Virus record (IMG/VR): IMGVR_UViG_3300013104_000024
Span: 1 to 64,000 of that record
Origin: a virus
Length of the DNA stretch: 64,000 nt
Reading direction: 5' to 3' (one strand)
In this document: positions 8,797 through 52,044 of the stretch, piece by piece
Position numbering within the stretch: the stretch's first letter is position 1
How the letters are laid out: the number at the start of each line of letters is the position of its first letter
Made by a program: the position numbers and the translations under genes
Notes under the pieces: generated by a model
Seen by the model: only the letters and a program-made list of their open reading frames with translations
Told to the model about the DNA's origin: nothing
Databases searched by the model: none

Positions 8797-10119
8797 TTAC
8801 GCGTACTGCTTCAGCGACTTCTCGACGAGGTGCAGGTAGGCTTCGAGTGCCTGGATGGCGACCTTGCTGAACGATGCGCCCGGCTCGACGAGCAGGCGGT
8901 TCGCAGCGGTTGCGATCGACTTCACGGCCGACAGTTGCTCGCGCTTGCCTTCGTCGGCTTCTTCGCCGGCCTTGGCAGCGACGCCTTCAGCAGCGGCAGC
9001 CAGTTCCTTCTGGACAGCGGCCAGAGCCGAGCTGTTCTTGCGGAATGCGAGCAGCTCTTCGGCGATCGCCACGACCTGCTTGCAGATCGAGCCAGCGTCG
9101 GCTTGGCTGAGCACTGCCAGCTTGCCGTCGGCCTTCGCGCCCTTGTTGATCTGGACGGTCTTGTACGCGACGCCCGACAGTTGCTTCGTCTTGTCGGTCA
9201 GGCTGGCCTTCTCGCCGGCCGGCACCCAGCTGATCACGGCGTAGTTGCCCGGCAGTTCCTTCGTGCCGTACACGGCCAGACCTTCCGGTGCAGCCGCGAT
9301 GCCCTTCGCTTGCGGATCGGCGAGCTTTTCCGAACCGGGGATCGGTTCGCACAGCTTCAGGATTTCCGGCAGGTTCTTCGCGTCCAGCGCCTTCACGGCT
9401 TCGACGGCCTTCTTGCCGACTTCGCCGCTGTGTTCCGCGCCGCGCGTGACGATCGCGCCGGTGACTTCCTTCAGCACAGCCAGACCCGAGGCCACCGAAG
9501 CGCCGCCGTTCGTGAAGATCTTGGCAGCGATGCCGCTGTCTTCGATTTCCTTGTTCTTCGCCTGACCGGTCGTCTGGCGAGCGCGCTCTTCGAGGCCCTT
9601 GGCACGCTTGATGACGTTCTCGGCCGCGCCGAAGACCTTCATCCAGTAGCCGGCGACCCAGGCAGCTGCCTTCTTGATCGCTTCGACGATCGCCTTCCAG
9701 ATCTTGCCGAGTTCTTCGCGCAGGTTTTCCAGCGCGATGACGCCGGCTTGCGTGCGGCTGCCCGTGCCGCCGAAGTTTTCCATCGACGGGATCGCCATCG
9801 CGGCGGTCGACGAACCGACGCGGTTCAGCAGGTGCTCGACGGACAGATGCAGCAGCATCGCGCCCTTGGCGTCGAGGCCGCCGTCGGTCTGGAAGCCTTC
9901 CAGTGCGACGATGAAGCTTTCGAGTGCCGCAGCGGTGTCTTCCGCTTCGTCGGTTGCTGCTTGATGCGCTTCGCCTTCAGCCGAGTCTTCGTTGATTTCC
10001 GCGACGTCGGTTTCGAGCGAGTCCGCGTGATCCGGCAGCTCCTTTTCGCCTTCGCCTTCGCCGGTCTTGAGTTTTTCGTTTTCCATTGCGGCCACCAGGC
10101 CACCGTGCATGCGTCGCAT
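8797..10119 (-). CDS. Inner-body-like head protein with maturation sites (copy 2)
   Basis: 440 residues, ATG at 10119 with AGGAG 9 bases upstream; like its neighbour it begins M-R-R. The first 135 residues are strongly acidic and hold several protease-type sites: A-M-E-N near 11, A-L-E-S-F near 65, A-L-E-G-F near 72, S-M-E-N-F near 112 and A-L-E-N-L near 129. Then comes a Trp/Lys helix (about 139-160) matching the one in the gene downstream, and an Ala-rich helical body. Inferred to be a paralogous capsid inner-body protein whose propeptide is removed by the phage prohead protease, which is not in this window. It has its own leader of about 128 bases. Confidence 0.75.
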   Translation of the reverse strand: MRRMHGGLVAAMENEKLKTGEGEGEKELPDHADSLETDVAEINEDSAEGEAHQAATDEAEDTAAALESFIVALEGFQTDGGLDAKGAMLLHLSVEHLLNRVGSSTAAMAIPSMENFGGTGSRTQAGVIALENLREELGKIWKAIVEAIKKAAAWVAGYWMKVFGAAENVIKRAKGLEERARQTTGQAKNKEIEDSGIAAKIFTNGGASVASGLAVLKEVTGAIVTRGAEHSGEVGKKAVEAVKALDAKNLPEILKLCEPIPGSEKLADPQAKGIAAAPEGLAVYGTKELPGNYAVISWVPAGEKASLTDKTKQLSGVAYKTVQINKGAKADGKLAVLSQADAGSICKQVVAIAEELLAFRKNSSALAAVQKELAAAAEGVAAKAGEEADEGKREQLSAVKSIATAANRLLVEPGASFSKVAIQALEAYLHLVEKSLKQYA

Positions 10120-17173: not shown

Positions 17174-18841
17174 TTACTGCTTCTGCCAATCCTTGGTCGG
17201 GATCTGACGATTACCCATCCCAGGCGCGACAGCGTTCTTCGGATGCTCCACTTGACCCGCTGACTTAGCAGCACCTGCTTGGACTGCTTTGGCCATCAGG
17301 TCTTTGGCGCTCTTGGCAAGACCACCACCCAGATCAGACGCCGGCACCTTACCCATTGCACGCCGCAAGAGCGTGACAATACCGCGAGCCTTCTGTACCT
17401 CCACCGGCATTTCCATCTTGGCTTCGGTCTTACCCTGCTCGTGGTTCTTCGCAGCGTAATGCTCGATCGCCGTCCAGACGTTCGACCACCATTCGGTGAG
17501 CGACATGTTCAGGCTGTCGACCTTGTCGAGGAAGTGCTCGATCGCCGTGTTGATCTGCATCATGAAGAGCAGATCGCGCTTCAGCTGCGAGAGTACCGGA
17601 GCCATGGCTTGCGAGATGTCTTTCGGCACACCCACACCTACACCTTGACCCGGATGCTGCGCGTTCCACTTGTTCGAGATCTCCGACAACTTGATCTGCG
17701 CCTTGTTGAACATCGTCAGCTTCTGGATGAACTTCACCCGCGACTGGAGCAGCGACTTGTACGAGGACGAGTTGATGAGGCGTTCGATCGACTCGCTGGC
17801 GACCACCGGCTTGAGTCGCTCCTTGCCAGCGTTGAACGCCATCAAGCCCTCAGGACGGTCCAAGGAGCGGGCGAGCTGTTCGAGGCTGTGGTAGTTCGTC
17901 CCAGCCATCGACAGCGGTTTCTTGGCCTGTTCAATGAGGTCCATGGCGTTTTTGTGACGCACCGGATCACCCTGCGTTTGCGTGACGCTGAAAATCGACT
18001 CAAACGTCTGCACCCGCTGCATCAGTTGTGCCTCGGTGGCCGAGAGCACCGGACCGATCGAGAGCATCAATTTGGTCCAACGTCCTTCGTGAAGGATGTC
18101 ATACCAGGCGTTGTCGGTCTGGTTGACCAGATGGTCGTACTTGCCGCCCATGTGACGGTCGGTCAGCATGAATGCTGCGTCTTCGAACGACTGGACGTGT
18201 GCGTTATCGCCCTTGTTCTCTTGAGCCGCGACTTCCGCCACGTGCTTGATGACGCCGGTTTCCTCGACCTTCTTGACGGCTTCCTTGTTAGCAGCTTCTG
18301 CCACCTTCAATTCTTGACCGACCTGCTCCTGCTTCTGGACCTTCTGCTCGGCTGCCTTGGTGGCTTCTTCGATGCCCTTGTTGATTTCTGCATCGGAAGG
18401 CTTGCCTTCGTCGGAACCGATCGAGATATTGCTGCCCGATTCGCCGTTCCACTTCTTGATGATCCAGCGCACGAACTTCCAGATCATCGCAGCAATGGCC
18501 AAGCCTGCGGCACCGATCAATGCCCAGATCCCAGCATGCAGCTCTTCGAGCGCCGGCTGGTAAAGCGTTGCAGTCGTCTGGCTCGTGAAGTAGCCAAGCG
18601 GATACTTCTGCGCCATCTCCGGCAGCAAGCGATGGGCTTCCATCGCAAACTGCTTGTTCATGCCGCCTTCTTTGACCATGTCCTCGTAGAGGTACTGGAT
18701 GCTGATGAACTGCTGTTCGATGGCGGCAACCATCTCTTCGTCGGCGTGCCAGTCCGGAGCCTGTGCTGCGCCAACTGTTTCCAGAAGGACAATGTCCGGA
18801 TCCCCGAACTCATTGCCCTCGTTCAAGTTGACGGCAAACAT
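17174..18841 (-). CDS. Inner-body-like head protein (copy 3, diverged)
   Basis: 555 residues. ATG at 18841 overlaps the upstream stop (TAATG) with AAGGTGG as ribosome site. The N-terminal 70 residues are acidic and end in F-A-M-E-A-H (about 65-70), again an A-x-E type maturation site. A hydrophobic Trp-rich helix follows at about 105-132, then a Lys/Glu/Ala coiled-coil stretch (about 150-200) and a helical body of 350 residues. Same plan as the genes at 7365 and 8797, hence an inferred capsid inner-body or ejected protein. The hydrophobic helix could be a true membrane segment. Confidence 0.65.
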   Translation of the reverse strand: MFAVNLNEGNEFGDPDIVLLETVGAAQAPDWHADEEMVAAIEQQFISIQYLYEDMVKEGGMNKQFAMEAHRLLPEMAQKYPLGYFTSQTTATLYQPALEELHAGIWALIGAAGLAIAAMIWKFVRWIIKKWNGESGSNISIGSDEGKPSDAEINKGIEEATKAAEQKVQKQEQVGQELKVAEAANKEAVKKVEETGVIKHVAEVAAQENKGDNAHVQSFEDAAFMLTDRHMGGKYDHLVNQTDNAWYDILHEGRWTKLMLSIGPVLSATEAQLMQRVQTFESIFSVTQTQGDPVRHKNAMDLIEQAKKPLSMAGTNYHSLEQLARSLDRPEGLMAFNAGKERLKPVVASESIERLINSSSYKSLLQSRVKFIQKLTMFNKAQIKLSEISNKWNAQHPGQGVGVGVPKDISQAMAPVLSQLKRDLLFMMQINTAIEHFLDKVDSLNMSLTEWWSNVWTAIEHYAAKNHEQGKTEAKMEMPVEVQKARGIVTLLRRAMGKVPASDLGGGLAKSAKDLMAKAVQAGAAKSAGQVEHPKNAVAPGMGNRQIPTKDWQKQ

Positions 18842-19299
18842 TAGGCCACCTTCTGGTTGGATTCCGCGTTGATGAGCGCTTCGATGGCGATCGTCAGTTG
18901 CAGGATCGCGTCCTTGTGGTCGTTGCAGTAGCAGATCAGATTCTGATCCATGTACAACCCTGCGCCACAGATCGTGTCGATGAAGCCGATGGCGGACGTC
19001 ACCGGCAGGTTACCCGGATGGGCCGAGGCGTAGCGCAGCAGCCAGAACTGGCGGGCTTCGTTGCGTGCGCTCTTCAGATCGATGATGATCTGCTCGTTCA
19101 TCTTCGACATGGCTTCGTCCATGCCGGTGAGCACCTGCGTGTTGTAATACGCCGCAGGCGAAGGCACCGGAGCCGACGGCAGCGAAGCGGTGCGCGAGAA
19201 GGCCAGCGCCATCGACGTGGTCAGCACTTGCAGACGCAGCGTCGGATCGGGTACGACGCGGGAGACGAGGTCTTGCAGACGGGAGAATGCGATTTTCAT
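18841..19299 (-). CDS. Small unknown head-block protein (152 aa)
   Basis: 152 residues, mainly helical with a Cys-containing C-terminal half; no recognised motif. Start ATG at 19299. Lies between the M48-like gene and the 555-residue inner-body-like gene and is coupled to the latter by a one-base overlap, so it is likely part of the same head-protein operon. Confidence 0.7.
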   Translation of the reverse strand: MKIAFSRLQDLVSRVVPDPTLRLQVLTTSMALAFSRTASLPSAPVPSPAAYYNTQVLTGMDEAMSKMNEQIIIDLKSARNEARQFWLLRYASAHPGNLPVTSAIGFIDTICGAGLYMDQNLICYCNDHKDAILQLTIAIEALINAESNQKVA

Positions 19300-19323: not shown

Positions 19324-20640
19324 TTAAGCAGCGGCCTGTTGACGCAGACGCAGGCTGGCTGCGAAAAGGTCATTCGAGGCGAGCGTTTCGAGTTCTCGCG
19401 TCAGTTGTTCCTGCGACAGCCGACGACGGGAGTCCTTGGAGAAGATGTTCCACAGCTTGCCCCAGAACTGCTCCCGGTCGTTGACTTCCTTGAGCACGTT
19501 GTCGATCGCAGCGAGGTCATCGGACAGACGGCCGGCGTAATCGCCATTGACCTTCTTGTCCTTCATCTCTTCGATGATCTGGTTGCGAATGCGCAGCAGA
19601 CGCATGCCCGGACGATCGTAAGTGCCGTCACCCATACCGTCCATCATGATGAGCGCGATACCAATCGACATGGCGTAACGACCCGCCAGCCCGGTCAGAC
19701 CACCCGCCAGCCCGACCATGATACCGCCGATCACCAGCGTGAACTTGGCAGCTTCCATGCCCAGATAAGCCGGCGTGGAGCGGAAGCTGATGTTGCCGTA
19801 CGAACGATACAGCTTTTCGAGCGCCAGCACGAGATCCTTGCCTGCGCCTTGACGGGCTGCATACTGGTCGGACAGTGCTTCCCACGTGTTCAGATCGTAG
19901 ATGTTGAACCCGATCTCGTCTGCGGTCGTCTTGGCGACATTGGAGATGACGACGTAGGCCACGACCTCATTGTCCTTCTCTTTGGCGAGTTCGCCCGTGT
20001 CGATGTCCAGATGCAGCGCCTTCTTGGCTGACACGAGCACGGCTTCGCGTTCTTCCGGCGTACCGGCTTTACCCAATGCTGCGGCCATACCAGCGAGCAC
20101 TTGGTTGGTCGTGACCGTACGCGTCATGTACTCGCAGTAGGTGACGAGGTGGCCGACTTCGTGCAGACACACAGCAGCCAGTTCTTCGGCCGTGAACTTG
20201 TTGCCTGAAATCATGTCAGCCGGGAAATACATCCGGTTGTCCATCTCAGCGAACACACCGTCGACCTTACCCGAAGCAAGGTTCACCGAGCCCTTGACCG
20301 TACCACCGGCTTCAGCGATGAAGCGCATGCCGTCGGCCGAGCTGATCCAGGCACGCTTGGTGTCATGCACGAGCGGGTGGTTCTTGTTCAGATGCGGCAC
20401 TTCGACTGCCGGACCGTAGTCGGTGATGTCGAAGGCAATCTTCAGGTTCGTGTACTTCTTGATGAGCTTGGAAATGTGGCCGCTGGCTTCCCCGTCTTTT
20501 CGGAGGTCGGCTGCCTTCTTTTTCTTCAGCTCGGCAAAAGCCATCGTCAGTTCTTTGTAAAACGCCTGACTCTTTTGGAATTGAATGGCCTCCATGCTGA
20601 GATGGAGTCCGTCCAGTCGACCCAAGGAATGACGCGTCAT
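19324..20640 (-). CDS. Virion-type protein with M48-like zinc metallopeptidase signature
   Basis: 438 residues, ATG at 20640 with AAGAGG upstream. Residues 160-164 read H-E-V-G-H, the zinc-binding core of metallopeptidases, inside a hydrophobic helix (L-A-A-V-C-L-H-E-V-G-H-L-V). About 90 residues later E-A-L-S-D (254-258) matches the E-x-x-x-D third-ligand element of M48 (HtpX/Ste24) enzymes, followed by a helix as in that family. A Gly-rich hydrophobic stretch at 300-332 may span a membrane. Near the N-terminus L-S-M-E-A (14-18) is a prohead-protease type site, and another G-M-E-A lies near 294. Position beside inner-body-like genes suggests a packaged, possibly injected protease; activity is inferred from motifs only. 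Confidence 0.65.
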   Translation of the reverse strand: MTRHSLGRLDGLHLSMEAIQFQKSQAFYKELTMAFAELKKKKAADLRKDGEASGHISKLIKKYTNLKIAFDITDYGPAVEVPHLNKNHPLVHDTKRAWISSADGMRFIAEAGGTVKGSVNLASGKVDGVFAEMDNRMYFPADMISGNKFTAEELAAVCLHEVGHLVTYCEYMTRTVTTNQVLAGMAAALGKAGTPEEREAVLVSAKKALHLDIDTGELAKEKDNEVVAYVVISNVAKTTADEIGFNIYDLNTWEALSDQYAARQGAGKDLVLALEKLYRSYGNISFRSTPAYLGMEAAKFTLVIGGIMVGLAGGLTGLAGRYAMSIGIALIMMDGMGDGTYDRPGMRLLRIRNQIIEEMKDKKVNGDYAGRLSDDLAAIDNVLKEVNDREQFWGKLWNIFSKDSRRRLSQEQLTRELETLASNDLFAASLRLRQQAAA

Positions 20641-20763
20641 GGAAAGCCTCTTATAGAAAAAATAACCCGGTCTGACTTGCCATCAGAAAAAAGCATACCG
20701 GTTAATGGTTTAGGTGAGCGAAACCTCATACTCATATTGCAATTCTCGACAGCTGCCAAGGAC
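20641..20763. promoter_or_regulatory. Divergent promoter region
   Basis: 123 bases between the divergent metallopeptidase-like gene and the DNA polymerase N-part. AT-rich runs on both strands (TATAGAAAAAATAA near 20652, AAAAAAGCATA near 20687) and an inverted repeat aaccggt/accggtt flanking 20668-20702 (aacccgg ... ccggtt). Promoters for both genes must lie here; the exact boxes are not assigned. Confidence 0.5.
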
Positions 20764-22494
20764 ATGACTACCAAAATTCCGTCTGAGAACATTCTCGGTT
20801 ACGAATGTCGTCACGTGGTGTACTGCAAACCACCTGAACACGACATGCCGGACATGCACGTCGTTAAAGAAATCATCCACACACGAGACGGGCAACAGGT
20901 CCCGAACCTGCGGGTGTGGAAGAACTACAAGCGTCCGTACGGTGTAACAAAACTGCACGAGCGCAAACACAAACAAAAAAAGGAATGGGAGAACCTCGAA
21001 AAGCTGAACATCCACAAAGTTCGCCAGTGCGATCTCGTTCGAGACGCTTCGATCAAACTGGGTGAGCCGTGGTTCCGGGGTAATCTGCGCAAACTCGCCA
21101 ACAGTCCGTACCTGTATGGCGCAGACATTCTGTCGACTGCTGTACTCAAGCGCGAGTACCAGGACAAGTTTCCTGATTTAAACACGTCGTACAAGTCCGC
21201 TCCGCTGGACATTGAAACGGACGTGGTGCACGGCACGGATGATCCGATCATGATCGTCTGTTCGTACGACAAAATCGTTCACACGACGATCCTGAAAGAC
21301 TTCGTCGCAGGTCAAGCACGGGCTGAAGAACGCCTGCGTGAAATGCTGATGGAAAAGCTCGGCGACGTCGTCAAGGAACGCGGTATCGAGTGGAAGATCA
21401 CGTGGTGTGATGATGCCGTGCAGCTGATCACCAAACAGATGGAATGGGTGCACCAGCAGAAGCCTGACTTCCTGAGCATCTGGAACATGGACTTCGACAT
21501 TCGGCGCATGATCGACACGTTGCGTAAGTACTACGTCGATCCGGCTGATGTCTTCTCTGATCCGGCGATTCCGAAAGAATATCGGCATTGCGAGTACAAG
21601 CAAGGTCCGTCGCAGAAGGTGACAGCTTCCGGTAAGGTCATGCCGATTAAGCCCGCTGGGCGTTGGCATACACTTTACACACCTGCCTCGTATTACGTAC
21701 TCGACGCAATGTGTGTCTATCGGCACATTCGCAATCAGGAAGCCGAAGAGCAGAGCTACTCGTTGGATGCGATCCTGAATAAGGAAATCAAGCGCGGTAA
21801 GCTCACATTCGAAGGGATCACCACAGTGTCCGAAGGGACGCTGGAGTGGCACCAAGAAATGCAGTCGAAGTACCCGCTGCATTACATCATCTACAACTTC
21901 TTTGACGCAGTCGGCATGCAGCTGCTCGAAGACAAAATCCAAGACATGGCACTGAAGCTGCCAATGTTCTCGGGTTGCTCAGACTTCAGTAACTTCAAGT
22001 CTCAGCCCCGACGGATGGTGGATGACTTGCATTACTACTGTCTGAATTACAAGACAGACGAAACGCCGAATGGTCTCATGATTGCGACCACCTCGGATAA
22101 CATGCGCGATGAGCTTGATGCAAAGACCGTTGATCCGGAAGGCTGGATCATTACGCTACCGGCTCACTTGGTGCACGACAACGGGTTGCAGATTATCAAG
22201 CATGCTCCGTGGTTGCGAACCAACTATCGTGGACACACGGGTGACTTGGACGTCTCGGCCTCTTACCCGACCAATGAAGAAGTGATGAACATCTCGAAAG
22301 AGACGACGCATCGCGAACTCATCGGGATTGATGGTATCTCGCTGCATGAGCGCAAGATGGCAGGGATTAACTTAAGCGGTGGCCAAACCAACGCTGTTGA
22401 AATCGCTACGACTTTGTTCGGACTTCCTGAATTGGATACTTTACTAGCTGCATTTGAAGAGGATATGAAGAATGGCGTTATCCAAAGCAGTTAA
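20764..22494 (+). CDS. Family B DNA polymerase, N-terminal part (exonuclease and palm motif A)
   Basis: 576 residues. Exo I D-I-E at 149-151, Exo II N-x-D-F-D at 241-245, Exo III Y-N-F-F-D at 377-381, then near the C-terminus the palm motif A as D-V-S-A-S-Y-P-T (496-503), equivalent to D-F-x-S-L-Y-P-S. The chain ends about 70 residues later without motifs B and C, which are found in the separate gene 57904-60114 on the other strand. Together they would make a proofreading replicative polymerase acting in the phage nucleus. Start ATG at 20764 is the only convincing one, although AAGGA lies very close to it; the frame is open far upstream. Overlaps the next gene by 23 bases. Confidence 0.85.
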   Translation: MTTKIPSENILGYECRHVVYCKPPEHDMPDMHVVKEIIHTRDGQQVPNLRVWKNYKRPYGVTKLHERKHKQKKEWENLEKLNIHKVRQCDLVRDASIKLGEPWFRGNLRKLANSPYLYGADILSTAVLKREYQDKFPDLNTSYKSAPLDIETDVVHGTDDPIMIVCSYDKIVHTTILKDFVAGQARAEERLREMLMEKLGDVVKERGIEWKITWCDDAVQLITKQMEWVHQQKPDFLSIWNMDFDIRRMIDTLRKYYVDPADVFSDPAIPKEYRHCEYKQGPSQKVTASGKVMPIKPAGRWHTLYTPASYYVLDAMCVYRHIRNQEAEEQSYSLDAILNKEIKRGKLTFEGITTVSEGTLEWHQEMQSKYPLHYIIYNFFDAVGMQLLEDKIQDMALKLPMFSGCSDFSNFKSQPRRMVDDLHYYCLNYKTDETPNGLMIATTSDNMRDELDAKTVDPEGWIITLPAHLVHDNGLQIIKHAPWLRTNYRGHTGDLDVSASYPTNEEVMNISKETTHRELIGIDGISLHERKMAGINLSGGQTNAVEIATTLFGLPELDTLLAAFEEDMKNGVIQSS

Positions 22495-22811: not shown

Positions 22812-23627
22812 TTATGCCAGCGCAGTGCTCTTCCAGAGGTCGAAGTTCGACGCCATCTTCGGGGCGTAATCACCTACGTTCTTCGGACCATTGTAGATGG
22901 TTGCGAAGCCCGTGAAGTCGTTCTTCTTCATCGCCGTCCAGAGTGCACCCTGACGGTACGACTTGATGAACTGCACGAAGGCCGCTACGTGCTTCTTCTC
23001 CGAGACCTTCATGTCGGCCACGTAATTGAAGATGCTGCTGTAGCCGCAGAACGAGAAGTTCGCACCCATGATCTGGAACAAACCCCACGAGGCCGATTGC
23101 AGCGCACAGGCTTGGTCGATCGACATGGCCAGATTCAATCGCTGGTATTCAGCCGGACCGCCCGAATAACCACCGGGGGTCGGATTGACGACGGTCGGGA
23201 AGCGATTGGCCAAGCCATTGGCTACGCCCGGCGTCTTGGCTGCCGAGAGCAGGTTGTACATGTAGTGTCGCTCAAACAGGATTTGGCACGTACCGTCAGC
23301 GAAGAACCCGGAGCCTTTGGATTCCGTCTCACATACCGCAAGCACCGAGGCAACTGACACACCGAGCGTCGCAGCAGCCGACTGGAAGTCTGCCATCAAG
23401 GCGTACTTCTGCTGGATGAACGGATCGAGCAGTGCGGCCGTCGCCGGACCGTAGACGCCATCGGGCGTCAGATTGTTTTGCTTTTGGAACGTCTGGAGAG
23501 CCGTCACCGACTTCGCTCCGAAGTTGCCATCGATCACGAGTGCCGGACTCACACGCGTCTTTTCGTTCAACGCCTTTTGAATCCCTCGACGTTGAAAGAT
23601 GTCATAGTTTGCAGGTAATGCACCCAT
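22812..23627 (-). CDS. Endolysin: peptidoglycan-binding domain plus N-acetylmuramidase
   Basis: 271 residues. Residues about 10-70 form a PG_binding_1 repeat (I-D-G-x-F-G then T-x-x-A-L-x-x-F-Q, and D-G-x-Y-G-P-x-T). The C-terminal 185 residues match the DUF3380 N-acetylmuramidase family: a catalytic-type Glu in C-E-T-E-S, the F-E-R-H-Y-M segment, and S-W-G-L-F-Q-I-M-G. The N-binding, C-catalytic order is also that of phiKZ gp144 and related Gram-negative phage endolysins, though the catalytic family differs. No signal peptide, so it needs a holin or another route; a candidate small membrane protein cluster lies at 57.0-57.9 kb. Flanked by terminators on both sides. Confidence 0.9.
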   Translation of the reverse strand: MGALPANYDIFQRRGIQKALNEKTRVSPALVIDGNFGAKSVTALQTFQKQNNLTPDGVYGPATAALLDPFIQQKYALMADFQSAAATLGVSVASVLAVCETESKGSGFFADGTCQILFERHYMYNLLSAAKTPGVANGLANRFPTVVNPTPGGYSGGPAEYQRLNLAMSIDQACALQSASWGLFQIMGANFSFCGYSSIFNYVADMKVSEKKHVAAFVQFIKSYRQGALWTAMKKNDFTGFATIYNGPKNVGDYAPKMASNFDLWKSTALA

Positions 23628-42033: not shown

Positions 42034-43598
42034 TACAGACTCCGATTTGCTACTGCAATTGAAAGTTCAGCGAATTGACTGCGGATGTCAGTGGGGAGAA
42101 TGATCCGCCGACTCGCTGTATCTTTGTTGATCACTCGAACCTTGTCGTTGGGCAAGGTCATCAACCAACCAAACTGGTCGAACTGCTTGGTCACGGCATC
42201 GACATTCAATACACTCGCGTTCTGAAGTCGACCCGATTCCTTTTGCTGTTTGCTGCTGGGGCGGTAGTGATAGGGATAGAAGACCGTCAGCTGTTCGCCA
42301 AGTTCCTTTCGGATCCTACCATGGCCGCCCATGCCGACTTCGGCGAATTCTGCATCCGACGTCTCAGCGATCGCACTTACCAGTCCTGCAACCAGATAGT
42401 GCTTGTTGTGCCAAAGCACGGCTTGAGTAACAGCCAGTGCTTGCACGAACAGATCCTTTTCGAGGTGATCCAACCCGTGCGGCTTAATCGCCGGGTCAAG
42501 CACCCACTGCATGATCGTTTTCTGAGGTTGTTGGATGCGGACATTCATCAGCACACGAGTGGTCTCCAATGCTTCGTTGACCAAACTCATGTCAATCGTC
42601 GGGGAAATGGCACGAGCGATACGATAGGGGTCACGCGCACCTTGAACAATGATGCCGATCTCGCCTTCCGCCAGCTCTTGTCGGATCTTGTATCCTTCAA
42701 GCCGTGACAGCTTATTCTCGTCGCCGTCGATTTCCTTTCGATTGTTCTTCTCCCGAACGTGTCCGATGAAACTGGACTCACCCGGATTCAGCCGATTGAG
42801 CGTATAGCTGTGGATCGACGAAACCAGATGCGATTCAGGATTGCTGTTCCGAATGTCGCCAGTGCAGACCCGACGAAAGACGATAACCCCAAGCAACCAT
42901 TCAGGGAAGTCCTCACTTCCCACGCCAGCAAGAATCGCTGAGTGTGGTCGCTTCGATTTATCGGTCGGGATAAAAGCGTTCACATACCCGCGAAGCTTGA
43001 CCATGGCTTCGCAGTACATCAGGTGCGTGCCGGACAACAACCGATACGCGTTGTACTCTTTCCAGTTCGTTCCCCAGATTTTGTGTTTTTCCGTATAGGC
43101 GATGGTTTCACCCCAGACGGGAACGATGGTACGCAACGCCAAAGCCAATACGAGCAACTTGTGATAGTCGTCTCGCGTATAGGTCTTGAGTCGCGTATTG
43201 GAGAGATCATCGCTCTCCACGAATTTCTCGCCGATCTTCTCCGGAATCCGGATGCCGGACTTGAACTTGACCCAATGATCGAGGTCATCGATCGGATGCA
43301 AGTTGCAAAGCTCGATCAGGAGCGGGCCTAACATAGAAGTCAGGCTAGTCGTATTTTCCGTGTTTTCGAATGCATCTTTGATGCGGACATATACGCTGAA
43401 GATCGCATCTTGGTGCGGTTTCTCCAGTTGCTCCCAATACTCGTTGATCTCGTCAAACAAACTCCCAGTGGTCGTAGACTCCTTTCCTTGTTGTTTCTTG
43501 AACGCTGCGTAGTTCCAGATGATCGTAATGCCATCATGGACCATCTGCGCATCAGACGAAGAACCGCCGCTCCCCATCCGATCAACGATAATTTTCAT
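42033..43598 (-). CDS. Candidate fifth subunit of the non-virion RNA polymerase (gp68-like)
   Basis: 521 residues, ATG at 43598 with AAGGAG. No standard RNA polymerase motif, as expected of phiKZ gp68, the non-canonical subunit needed for activity of the five-subunit enzyme. Evidence is position (first gene of the run 68-69-70-71-74), a size in the expected range, and an early-type promoter of its own at 43645-43652. Contains many Lys/Arg-rich segments (for example near 280-300). Alternative: unrelated conserved protein. Confidence 0.65.
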   Translation of the reverse strand: MKIIVDRMGSGGSSSDAQMVHDGITIIWNYAAFKKQQGKESTTTGSLFDEINEYWEQLEKPHQDAIFSVYVRIKDAFENTENTTSLTSMLGPLLIELCNLHPIDDLDHWVKFKSGIRIPEKIGEKFVESDDLSNTRLKTYTRDDYHKLLVLALALRTIVPVWGETIAYTEKHKIWGTNWKEYNAYRLLSGTHLMYCEAMVKLRGYVNAFIPTDKSKRPHSAILAGVGSEDFPEWLLGVIVFRRVCTGDIRNSNPESHLVSSIHSYTLNRLNPGESSFIGHVREKNNRKEIDGDENKLSRLEGYKIRQELAEGEIGIIVQGARDPYRIARAISPTIDMSLVNEALETTRVLMNVRIQQPQKTIMQWVLDPAIKPHGLDHLEKDLFVQALAVTQAVLWHNKHYLVAGLVSAIAETSDAEFAEVGMGGHGRIRKELGEQLTVFYPYHYRPSSKQQKESGRLQNASVLNVDAVTKQFDQFGWLMTLPNDKVRVINKDTASRRIILPTDIRSQFAELSIAVANRSL

Positions 43599-43639
43599 TC
43601 AATTACTTCTCCTTACAAACGTAGTCCACTCCAACTACA

Positions 43640-43668
43640 TGCAAGTGATATATTGCTGAATCTTTCTT
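43640..43668 (-). promoter_or_regulatory. Early-type promoter of the gp68-gp70-like operon
   Basis: The minus strand reads AGAAAGATTCAGCAA then TATATCAC (43645-43652). Near-identical to the element at 38345-38378 and close to the phiKZ early motif TATATTAC. The coding start is about 47 bases downstream. Confidence 0.65.
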
Positions 43669-43674
43669 GAATGT

Positions 43675-43694
43675 GGGAAGCCCGAAGGCTTCCC
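43675..43694 (-). terminator. Hairpin after the SSB-like gene
   Basis: Perfect 8-bp stem gggaagcc/ggcttccc with a tetraloop, just downstream of the stop at 43721. The minus-strand tail (ACATTC) lacks a U-run, so termination may be partial; the plus-strand tail is TTTCC. Confidence 0.6.
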
Positions 43695-43720
43695 TTTCCT
43701 ACTTGGTTGCCGACGATTCC

Positions 43721-44476
43721 TTAGAAGGGAACGTCGTCGTCGTAGCCGTCGCTGTCCGGGGTGTCGTTGTTGCTGCCCGAACCCGAACGGCCGCCGCCGT
43801 CGTAATTGCCACCACCGCGATTGTTGCCGTAGCTACCACCGCCACCACCACGGTTACCACCGTTGTTGCCGCCTTCCTTCTTCTCGGGTTCCTTGTACGT
43901 GTCGATCGCCAGCGTCGGGATCGAATGCTTCAGGAACAGCAGGTTGGCTTTCGCGACCAGCACCGAAGTTTCCGCGTTGGTCATCGCTTCGCCGTTGCCG
44001 TTGTAGAACGCCGTGTACATCGTGTTGCCGAACGGGAACTTGATGCGCGGACGGTTCTTGTCCTTCGAGACGAGCGACATCCAGACTTCGCCGTCTTTCT
44101 TACCGACGTAGAGCGTACCCTGCACTTCGACATCTTTGGACTTTTCCCGGCCGAACCAGGAGTAGTCCTTGATTTCCATCCAGTGCTTGTGGTCGCCCGT
44201 GTCCGGGAAGTTGATCGCCATCTCCAACAGCACGAGGAACTTGCAGAAGTCCGTCGGTGGCATCTTGACGTCGATCTTGCCGTTGTTGTTGCGCTTGTCC
44301 GACTGATCGTCCGGATCGTTCGTCCAGAGGGTCAGGCGAGCTTGGTTACCGAAGTAACCCCAGTTCAACGATGCCCACTTTCCCTTTGCGGACGAAGGAG
44401 CCGACAGACCGACGCGACGGTCATCGAGGACATTCTTCGGACGTTGCGGAAAGGAGCGATTGTTGTCGTATGCCAT
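43721..44476 (-). CDS. Single-stranded DNA-binding-like protein
   Basis: 251 residues from the ATG at 44476 (GAGA upstream). Residues 1-170 form an ordered domain rich in Lys, Trp and Phe. Residues about 185-240 are a Gly/Asn/Arg linker with R-G-G-G-G-G and Y-G-N-N-R-G-G-G units. The chain ends Y-D-D-D-V-P-F, matching the D-D-D-I-P-F acidic tip by which bacterial SSB recruits partners. Order of domain, Gly linker and acidic tip is that of SSB, but I cannot confirm the OB fold. Probable role: coating ssDNA in phage replication. High GC third positions suggest abundance. Confidence 0.7.
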   Translation of the reverse strand: MAYDNNRSFPQRPKNVLDDRRVGLSAPSSAKGKWASLNWGYFGNQARLTLWTNDPDDQSDKRNNNGKIDVKMPPTDFCKFLVLLEMAINFPDTGDHKHWMEIKDYSWFGREKSKDVEVQGTLYVGKKDGEVWMSLVSKDKNRPRIKFPFGNTMYTAFYNGNGEAMTNAETSVLVAKANLLFLKHSIPTLAIDTYKEPEKKEGGNNGGNRGGGGGSYGNNRGGGNYDGGGRSGSGSNNDTPDSDGYDDDVPF

Positions 44477-44590: not shown

Positions 44591-45454
44591 TTAGGGCACT
44601 AGCATCGCTTTCAGCTTTGCTTTGAAGTAGGGATTCTTGAGTTGCTCGATGCTATATCGCAACTTATCGATGGTTGTCAGACTGGTCCACTTGTACTTTT
44701 CCGCTACCTCCATTAGCTCGCGTCTTTGTTCAATCGGGTATGGGTGAAACATCTCGTGGTCGCCAAAGATCTGTAAGAGATCTTCCCGGAACGGCATTCT
44801 GGTCAGATCTTTGCCTTGCAGATACTTGGTGTACCACTGTGCCTTTTCCTTGATCGCCCCGGTGTGCGACTCCAACAGCGTCAACTCACCGAAATGCTTG
44901 GCACTGCACAAGTCCAAAGGAACGTGTGTCAGTATCATCGTCTTCACCGACACTGTGGGTTTCAGTGTCGTGTTAAAGACTCGCACCCGTGATTCAATCT
45001 TCAGGTGCGCCGGCGGTTGCTCGGCCAAGATCAGATGTTGAAGTGCATCCATCATGGTCTTGGTGTAGAGCTTTTGCTTCGCCGTCGTGTCCATCCGAAT
45101 TCGAGCATTCGGATACTTCTGCTGGAGATGGTTGTAGTTGCAGGCGTAGTACACCACCTTCACGTTGTACTCGTCTCCAATCATGGAGTCGATACGATCC
45201 ATCTCATGGCGAATCTCTTCGCCAACGGGCACACCCAACACTTGGTTCATGGCGTCCGCTTGCAAGGACCCTACCATGTTGCGGTAGAGCGTCTTCAAGT
45301 TGACCCAGAACTCCGTGTACTGCCGAATCGGTGGTGCATTCACCTTGATGTCAGGGTGGATGCCGAGCGCCGATTCAATAGCCAGCGAAGTGCCCACGGA
45401 CAGCGGCAACTGTCCAATCGTTCGCTCCGACAAGTGCCGTTCACTTACGCTCAT
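44591..45454 (-). CDS. Unknown protein coupled to the SbcD-like nuclease (287 aa)
   Basis: 287 residues, ATG at 45454 overlapping the nuclease stop as ATGA, with AAGGTGG upstream. Helical, with His/Lys/Met-rich segments; no P-loop or nuclease motif. Because it is translationally coupled to the metallophosphoesterase and precedes the SSB-like gene, a role in DNA processing is likely but unproven. It is not an SbcC homologue (no ATPase motifs). Confidence 0.7.
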   Translation of the reverse strand: MSVSERHLSERTIGQLPLSVGTSLAIESALGIHPDIKVNAPPIRQYTEFWVNLKTLYRNMVGSLQADAMNQVLGVPVGEEIRHEMDRIDSMIGDEYNVKVVYYACNYNHLQQKYPNARIRMDTTAKQKLYTKTMMDALQHLILAEQPPAHLKIESRVRVFNTTLKPTVSVKTMILTHVPLDLCSAKHFGELTLLESHTGAIKEKAQWYTKYLQGKDLTRMPFREDLLQIFGDHEMFHPYPIEQRRELMEVAEKYKWTSLTTIDKLRYSIEQLKNPYFKAKLKAMLVP

Positions 45455-50034: not shown

Positions 50035-51987
50035 TTAGTTCCAGCGACCGCGCCATGCGCCGCCGAACTGGCCGCCGGGTTGCGGATTCAGGCCACCTTG
50101 CTGGAACAGGTTGGTGGTCTGGTAGCCGCCGAGCGCTTGCTGGACGAACTGGTACTGCGGCACGTCGAAGCCTTGCACTTCGCCGAACGGAGCCGATTCG
50201 CGGATCGCGAGACCGGTGCCAGCCGCAGCCGTCGTGAACGCTTGCAGGAAGTCGTCACGGAAGGTGATACGCGTCGCGAAGCCCGTGATCTTCAGGCTCG
50301 GGATCAGCGTCTGGAGGATGTGGATGCGTGCGTCGAGACGCTGCTCGATCGGCAGGTCGCTACGCAGATACGTATCCGTCCAGTCACGTGCAACCTTGAT
50401 GTCACGCTCGCCCATCAGGTTGTACATCGCCACCGTGTCGACGTCGCGGACGTCGCGCAGTTCGCCGTCGGCACCCGGATAGTTGCCCAGCACGATGCGG
50501 TTGTTTTCGTTGAAGCAGATTTCGCTGCCACGCACGAAGCCGGTCTTTTCCAGCCCGCCGTTGGTCAGGTAGTTCACCGCATCGTACAGCTTTTCCGAAG
50601 CTTCACGCTTGCGCGCTGCTTCTTCCTGGCTGTTCGGCATGCGGGCTGCTTCCGCGAAGTCCACGTTCGGCCACGTGGAGTCGCCGCATTCTTCGACGTC
50701 GAGCGAGATCACCAGACCGTCGCGAACCGTGGCGTGCAGCAGCGCGCCCAGATCCTGCGCACGGAACGTGTCCGTCTTCGTGTTGATGCGCGTGCCGACG
50801 CCCGTCGCCGGATCGATCATCGTTTCGAGGCCGATCGCGCCGATGTCCTTGATGTCCAGATCCTTGTCGCGGCCGAGGTTGTACTGCGGCTTGAACGCGG
50901 GATACCAGGCACCCGGCTTGCGCAGCGTGTAGACGGTCAGCAGGGCCAGCAGCTGCTTGCCGAGCGTCGCGCCGTTGTCGGTGCGCAGGTTGGTGATGAC
51001 GAAGCGCGGGATGAACTGCTTGAACTGCTCGATGTTCTGGCCCGGCTGGAACTGGAACTGCGGCGGCAGATACGGGTTGATCTGCGGCTGACGCTGGTGG
51101 ATCAGATCGATGAAGCCGGCGATACGGGTGATGTCCGTCGGCTTTTCGAGGTTCTGCGACTGCTGCACTTGCTGGTTGCGCTGTGCTTGACCGGCACGGA
51201 ACACCACGCGAACGTCGGCACGCACTGCCTGGCCGGTCGTGTCGACCAGTTGCGGCTGATGGAACTGCGTGTTCAACGTGAGCGTGCCGTCCTGCTCGAT
51301 CTTGCGCAGGTTCAGATCGCGGAAGCCCGGAATCGACTTCGCCAGCGCCATGGTCGCAGCCGACACGGCGTCCACACGCAGGAACTTCTCTGCGTTTTCT
51401 TCCGACCACTTGAAGTCGGCACGCACGACGCGGCCTTCGCCCGAGTGCAGCGGAACGTTCGGGAACTGGCGGCTCAGTTCCTTGCGGATTTCGGCGCGCA
51501 TGATTTCGTCATACGCGTCGCCGATCACTTGCTTCAGTTCGACCGTACGGCCTTGGCCGATGTTGACCGACACCGGGTTCGGTTCCGGTGCGCTTTCCGC
51601 GAGCAGCAGTGCGTGATAGCCGACGCCCAGTTGCGGTTGTTGCTTGAGCGACACGCAGATGACGAGCAGCGACACGCCGAGGTTCAGCGCCGGGTTTTCG
51701 CGGTCCAGCGCGACGACACGGATGTCGAACGTCGAATCGGGCAGCGACTTCAGATCAGCGTCCACGACAGCACGAGCCTTCGTCAGAACTTCCGACTGCG
51801 CGTTTGCGGCAGCCGGCATTTCGAACATCGAGCCGAGCGCACGGAAGCTCAGCAGCGGATCTTGGTGCGACGCTTGTGCTTGTTGGCTGCTTGCTTGTTG
51901 ACCAGCGGGTTGCTGCTTGGCTTGTGCCTCGTCGAAAGCGTGACCGAGGTTGCCGCGTTGCTGGCCTTGGGAGGTTTTCAGGCTCAT
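50035..51987 (-). CDS. chmA: Chimallin candidate, phage nuclear shell protein
   Basis: 650 residues from the ATG at 51987 (AAAGGAAAA upstream). Gln/Ala-rich flexible N-terminal tail (about 1-45), an ordered body of roughly 560 residues, and a Gly/Gln/Trp-rich flexible C-terminal tail ending G-R-W-N; tails of this kind link subunits in the chimallin lattice. Chimallins are about 600-650 residues and encoded directly before the gp55-type RNA polymerase subunit, as here. It has its own early-type promoter, a 14-base palindrome in the leader, its own strong terminator and highly biased codons, all fitting an abundant early protein. No catalytic motif. Identity is inferred from position, size and expression signals, not alignment. 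Confidence 0.75.
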   Translation of the reverse strand: MSLKTSQGQQRGNLGHAFDEAQAKQQPAGQQASSQQAQASHQDPLLSFRALGSMFEMPAAANAQSEVLTKARAVVDADLKSLPDSTFDIRVVALDRENPALNLGVSLLVICVSLKQQPQLGVGYHALLLAESAPEPNPVSVNIGQGRTVELKQVIGDAYDEIMRAEIRKELSRQFPNVPLHSGEGRVVRADFKWSEENAEKFLRVDAVSAATMALAKSIPGFRDLNLRKIEQDGTLTLNTQFHQPQLVDTTGQAVRADVRVVFRAGQAQRNQQVQQSQNLEKPTDITRIAGFIDLIHQRQPQINPYLPPQFQFQPGQNIEQFKQFIPRFVITNLRTDNGATLGKQLLALLTVYTLRKPGAWYPAFKPQYNLGRDKDLDIKDIGAIGLETMIDPATGVGTRINTKTDTFRAQDLGALLHATVRDGLVISLDVEECGDSTWPNVDFAEAARMPNSQEEAARKREASEKLYDAVNYLTNGGLEKTGFVRGSEICFNENNRIVLGNYPGADGELRDVRDVDTVAMYNLMGERDIKVARDWTDTYLRSDLPIEQRLDARIHILQTLIPSLKITGFATRITFRDDFLQAFTTAAAGTGLAIRESAPFGEVQGFDVPQYQFVQQALGGYQTTNLFQQGGLNPQPGGQFGGAWRGRWN

Positions 51988-52012
51988 GATTTTCCTTTCT
52001 TTGCTAAAAAGA

Positions 52013-52026
52013 TGTTTGCGCAAACA
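52013..52026. promoter_or_regulatory. 14-base perfect palindrome in the chimallin leader
   Basis: TGTTTGCGCAAACA lies between the early-type box (52050-52059) and the ribosome site of the chimallin candidate. It could be an operator or a 5' UTR hairpin; no second copy was seen. Confidence 0.5.
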
Positions 52027-52044
52027 CAGTGTTACCACTATGCA

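Follow-up and report, generated by a model that had tools for sequence, protein, structure and literature searches.

The 64,000-nucleotide stretch of viral DNA analyzed here, referred to as the window, contains an open reading frame of 438 amino acids at positions 19324–20640 on the minus strand, which is predicted to encode an M48-like zinc metallopeptidase packaged in the phage head. It matched phrog_2767, the family that includes phiKZ gp84, SPN3US gp45, and PhiPA3 gp86, over the full length of the profile (residues 12–434 of 438, E 2.8e-97). Several features can be assigned within the gene, all on the minus strand. A putative N-terminal propeptide (residues 1–17, 20590–20640) ends in a predicted prohead-protease site, S15-M16-E17. 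The predicted zinc-ligand and catalytic motif HEVGH (residues 160–164, 20149–20163) is followed by the predicted third zinc ligand motif E254-A-L-S-D258 (19867–19881), with 90 residues separating H164 from the latter. Downstream, a Gly-rich hydrophobic stretch (approximately residues 291–333) falls into a helical hairpin predicted to insert into a membrane (residues 289–333, 19642–19776), and Y341-D-R-P-G-M-R347 (19600–19620) appears to be the counterpart of the THPxxxxR element of M48 peptidases.

The gene belongs to a known family that occurs throughout phiKZ-like phages, to which the window protein adds a new member. By tblastn, 242 phage records contained a family match at E ≤ 0.01; relaxing the threshold to E ≤ 10 raised the number to 252, of which the last few are chance hits. 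The phages infect Pseudomonas, Erwinia, Salmonella, Vibrio, Serratia, Klebsiella, Burkholderia, and other hosts. Burkholderia phage FLC9 was the closest isolate (36.5% identity). The family gene of SPN3US, located at 43079–44431, was identified as gp45 because gp47 has been placed at 44887/44899, two genes downstream, and because the homolog of phage JM-2012 is annotated as 'similar to ORF45 in Salmonella phage SPN3US'. The annotation of phiKZ gp84 reads 'structural head protein'. In Pseudomonas phage PA1C (locus L015, 2172–3418), the annotation divides the gp84 homolog between two successive ORFs of different frame, which may reflect a frameshift, a sequencing error, or a genuine split.

An HExxH motif taken alone was rejected as proof of a peptidase, since it is near chance in a window of this size: eight ORFs of at least 100 amino acids contained it. 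When the peptidase sequence was shuffled, HExxH appeared in 0.9% of the shuffled sequences, and HExxH with ExxxD 60–120 residues later in 0.2%. The case for a peptidase therefore rests on conservation, which was evaluated in an alignment of 65 diverse homologs with 16–72% identity to the window protein. Residues G128, H160, E161, G163, H164, E254, D258, Y341, and R347 were invariant, while R263, G265, E17, and Q22 were nearly so. The invariant set includes the predicted zinc-site pattern of M48 peptidases. Furthermore, HExGH was kept in 77/77 non-redundant family members extracted, and the spacing between HExxH and the third ligand varied across the family from 86 to 95 residues. The hydrophobic segment next to the zinc site, which had been pointed out in the initial annotation, corresponds to a conserved hairpin, with a hydrophobic window at this position in 60/65 homologs. 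Judged by the conservation of its motifs, the window gene very probably encodes an active zinc peptidase of the M48 type.

Searches with the window protein alone gave no M48 match in Pfam or NCBIfam, and family-level profiles were used for this reason. With a 23-member family profile, the five best matches among all PDB sequences were ZMPSTE24 and Ste24p (best E 3e-4), and both HExGH and ExxxD were in register in the alignment with ZMPSTE24, the latter opposite the ExxAD of ZMPSTE24/Ste24p. ZMPSTE24 ranked first again with a 65-member profile. Among the Pfam families searched with the 65 members, M48 was matched by most members (23/65 at E ≤ 1, best 2.1e-5), followed by SprT-like (7/65, 0.048). 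The member from Serratia phage Moabite scored just over the M48 (PF01435) cut-off (20.4 versus 20.3 bits), and g051 of Bacillus phage AR9, a distant homolog, was also above it (23.8 bits).

The alignment of the family profile with 13 bacterial M48 proteins reached an hhalign probability of 94 with three motifs in register. In the relaxed alignment, HExGH, ExxxD, and YDxPxxR were found opposite HEISH, ExxAD, and the THPPLDKR of HtpX. In size-matched comparisons, sets of HtpX, BepA, and LoiP gave probabilities of 79–94, compared to 4 for SprT, 3–18 for M41, 6–38 for M50, and 0.4 or less for reversed M48. At the level of profiles, the similarity is thus specific to M48, clearly over M41, M50, and SprT. 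The interpretation of HEVGH and an E-x-x-x-D about 90 residues later as an M48 pattern, made initially from the letters of the gene, is thereby strengthened (94 versus 3–38 for the controls, and the motif residues invariant in the 65 homologs). Single-sequence hhalign comparisons had been weak (HtpX 69.7, BepA 11.7) and were replaced by the M48 profile with controls; a global hhalign run produced a meaningless alignment and was discarded.

An AlphaFold2 model generated with the 65-row alignment reached a pLDDT of 86.1 and a pTM of 0.86. In this model, HEVGH lies in a helix comprising residues 151–191 and ExxxD in a helix comprising residues 250–280, after which a pair of hydrophobic helices follows (289–311 and 314–333). 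A Foldseek search of the PDB gave no significant match for the whole model, with Ste24p at rank 15 (E 3.0, TM 0.15), nor for the isolated core (residues 52–290, pTM 0.81). The structure prediction that had been proposed as a check of the M48 fold thus placed both motifs on helices but did not connect the model significantly to a solved M48 structure. Among viral models, Foldseek found family members and then proteins annotated as zincin, M48, or beta-barrel assembly-enhancing protease (BepA), with E values from 1.9e-6 to 1.7e-3.

Packaging and processing have been demonstrated for a homolog. SPN3US gp45 is classified as 'Head, unknown function', and not as 'Head ejection', and is cut at ASE-20 (PMC5694885, Table 1; PMC10052503, Table 2); it was present in all listed mass-spectral runs and was found cut in heads as well as in virions (PMC5694885; PMC10052503). 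S-M-E-17 of the window protein shares its alignment column with this experimentally mapped prohead-protease site. E17 is kept in 64/65 homologs, and S/A/G-x-E occurs at the same place in 62/65, which matches the cleavage motif reported for phiKZ (PMC10449902). Both the maturation site near the N-terminus and the packaged, matured head protein postulated in the initial annotation are therefore supported, the first by the aligned site and the second by the published data on SPN3US gp45. Since cleavage is stated for every phiKZ homolog of the seven conserved SPN3US proteins that are cut, gp47 and gp225 being the two without homologs (PMC10052503), cleavage of phiKZ gp84 is implied. By homology and published mass spectrometry, the window protein is very likely packaged and N-terminally processed.

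From the spectral counts in PMC5694885, the copy number of gp45 per SPN3US particle was roughly estimated as approximately 206, 89, or 124 when scaled to the capsid, sheath, and tube proteins, respectively. The phiKZ inner-body list comprises gp89, gp90, gp93, gp95, gp97, and gp162, and gp84 is absent from it (PMC13282480). Similarly, gp84 is not among the phiKZ proteins named in the examined passages of PMC10449902 on the injection assay. With PF03420, the S77 prohead protease was not matched even in the SPN3US record and a phiKZ-like record, and this result is uninformative.

The gene order at the locus is the same as around phiKZ gp84 and SPN3US gp45: a DNA polymerase gene on the other strand, the peptidase gene, a gene of approximately 150 codons, and a large head gene. 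In the window, the third position is taken by a gene for a 152-residue protein with no assigned function (18841–19299, minus strand; 40% identity to FLC9_gp343), the positional counterpart of phiKZ gp85 and SPN3US gp46. It is followed by a gene for a 555-residue protein (17174–18841, minus strand; FLC9_gp342, E 4e-17), the positional counterpart of phiKZ gp86 and SPN3US gp47. At most homolog loci, an ORF of approximately 130–170 amino acids begins no more than about 35 bases from the stop codon of the peptidase gene and precedes a larger ORF. In loci L029 and L041, no ORF of approximately 150 amino acids was found downstream of the peptidase gene before the large gene is reached; in L029, the large gene follows directly. 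SPN3US gp47 is an essential candidate head ejection protein with a transmembrane segment (PMC5694885). No sequence similarity to it was detectable for the 555-residue protein, so that the correspondence is a positional argument; the layout is shared, with A-L-E-99 just ahead of a hydrophobic segment at 103 in the window protein and ALE-111 ahead of one at 119 in gp47.

Further genes in the window characterize the phage. A nuclear shell (chimallin-type) protein is encoded at 50035–52038 on the minus strand (phrog_4795, E 3.5e-82), which indicates a nucleus-forming phage. Matches to phrog_4795 were present in 25/30 searched records bearing the peptidase family; several of the others are short fragments, and the SPN3US record was also without a match to the model. 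The ORF at 8797–10119 (minus strand) matched the internal head protein family phrog_2497 (E 3.7e-34) and, more weakly, several other internal head protein families. At 22812–23627 (minus strand), a protein with muramidase and peptidoglycan-binding parts is encoded. Its nearest PHROGs belong to the head and packaging category, and it is possibly a packaged lysin. The DNA polymerase ORF (20365–22494, plus strand) overlaps the 5' end of the opposite-strand peptidase gene in its longer form. As phrog_3011 matched it only from residue 137, the true start of the polymerase is probably near 20770.

The metallopeptidase reading of this family is not new. The initial annotation knew of no metallopeptidase described in the phiKZ inner body, and in this respect it had been anticipated: the Moabite homolog carries the label 'M48 family lipoprotein protease', with an accompanying note that refers to an HHpred match to HtpX (3CQB) and to phiKZ084, and a conserved uncharacterized zincin-like metallopeptidase was described in phages of the phiKZ group by Iyer et al. 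(2021; PMC7824862). Their zincin, cited as AMR59696.1, likely corresponds to the phrog_2767 family. In addition, the homologs of the Erwinia billingiae phages AH04 and AH06 are annotated as 'peptidase'. In the literature searched, no statement was found that equates the zincin with the packaged, prohead-processed gp45/gp84, nor is gp84 named in the papers on the early stages of phiKZ infection, on ASO screening, on AVAST5, or on ribosome targeting. The signature is real and strongly conserved, and the window protein is probably an active zincin packaged in the head.

The best explanation overall, which we hold with moderate confidence, is a packaged M48-like gluzincin that is ejected, anchored in a membrane, and cuts membrane-proximal proteins. 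The enzyme would be made as a precursor whose 17-residue N-terminal propeptide would direct it to the capsid before the prohead protease of the phage cuts after S-M-E-17 and removes the propeptide. Tens to approximately 200 copies of the mature enzyme would be stored in the head and ejected at infection alongside the genome and the virion RNA polymerase. The hairpin between the third zinc ligand and Y-D-x-P-x-x-R would then anchor the enzyme in the host inner membrane or in the membrane of the early infection vesicle, where its substrates would be host or phage proteins close to the membrane, one or a few in number. Ejection is likely, and action at a membrane thereafter is a plausible, more tentative step. 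The conserved gene order next to the position of the gp47/gp86 ejection protein was counted in favor of this explanation. Counted against it were the copy number, which seems high for a pure enzyme, the listing of SPN3US gp45 under 'Head', and, on the side of the fold, the PDB result of Foldseek, the window protein's lack of a Pfam M48 match, and the change from His-Pro to Y-D-x-P.

Alternatively, the enzyme might act earlier, in the maturing prohead, where it would perform cleavages beyond those of the serine prohead protease before ending as a spent head component. Iyer et al. (2021; PMC7824862) suggested an assembly-stage role for the phiKZ-group zincin, and as the enzyme is itself a prohead-protease substrate (PMC10052503), its activation could be timed to maturation. 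However, the head cleavages of SPN3US mapped in PMC10052503 were all ascribed to the serine protease gp245 (A-x-E) and none to a second protease, and the conserved hydrophobic hairpin would have no obvious use within the head; we regard such a role as unlikely. The hairpin would have a place if the protein were instead a structural, membrane-active component of ejection, a scaffold of zincin origin that mainly lines or seals the DNA path through the inner membrane, with catalysis secondary or lost in practice. This is also in line with approximately 90–200 gp45 copies per head by spectral counts and with the neighbor in the operon, which occupies the place of an essential ejection protein carrying a transmembrane segment. 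A dead enzyme, however, is expected to lose some of its zinc-ligand and catalytic residues, all of which are invariant in the 65 homologs, and the probability of a mainly structural function appears similarly low. Even less probable is an HExxH protein of another zincin family, or a metal site devoid of peptidase function, that only resembles M48. The lack of a significant Foldseek match to solved M48 structures and the weak SprT-like matches in 7/65 members would fit such a protein, but the size-matched profile controls set M48 apart from SprT, M41, and M50, ExxxD and the downstream R are in register with M48, and AR9 g051 bridges the two groups.

With the ejected, membrane-anchored M48-like peptidase as the preferred reading, it is plausible that the virions of nucleus-forming phages hold a ready-made membrane metalloprotease. 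Fired into the host inner membrane or the early infection vesicle when infection starts, it would perform an initial enzymatic step in takeover or in building the vesicle. This proposal is tentative. In phiKZ-like phages, a membrane vesicle first encloses the genome, and most of the head proteins that they package are without an assigned function. Among these proteins, a conserved enzyme whose predicted zinc site is intact and which has a removable propeptide and a hydrophobic hairpin is a concrete candidate that can be mutated. A single position, E161 in the window protein and the equivalent Glu of SPN3US gp45, provides a handle on whether protease activity delivered by the virion is needed for infection.

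Compared to the named isolates phiKZ gp84, SPN3US gp45, and PhiPA3 gp86, the window protein is alike in full-length homology, gene neighborhood, motifs, and the position of the N-terminal cleavage site; at approximately 21–36% identity, there is no essential difference. Ste24 and HtpX are membrane-associated M48 peptidases. With the M48 peptidases Ste24/ZMPSTE24, HtpX, LoiP, and BepA, the window protein shares HExxH, ExxxD in the following helix, and a basic residue after a THP-like element. In contrast to them, the window family has Y-D-x-P in place of the canonical T-H-P (His-Pro), a hairpin that sits after the third ligand, and extra N- and C-terminal parts.

Bacillus phage AR9 encodes a second, shorter zincin-like ORF (93002–93439, 344 aa) with HExGH- and ExxxD-like stretches. 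Its g051, annotated as 'zincin protease' (pfam01435), aligned with the family profile at an hhalign probability of 97.4. HEIGH and EKFAD are shared with the family, and PHPTIYKR (DPHPTIYKR) stands where the family has YDxPxxR. Unlike the family, g051 lacks a strong hydrophobic hairpin (its highest hydropathy over 19 residues is 1.16), and it has different gene neighbors and a Bacillus host. By its motifs, AR9 g051 is a bridge between the window family and canonical M48 peptidases.
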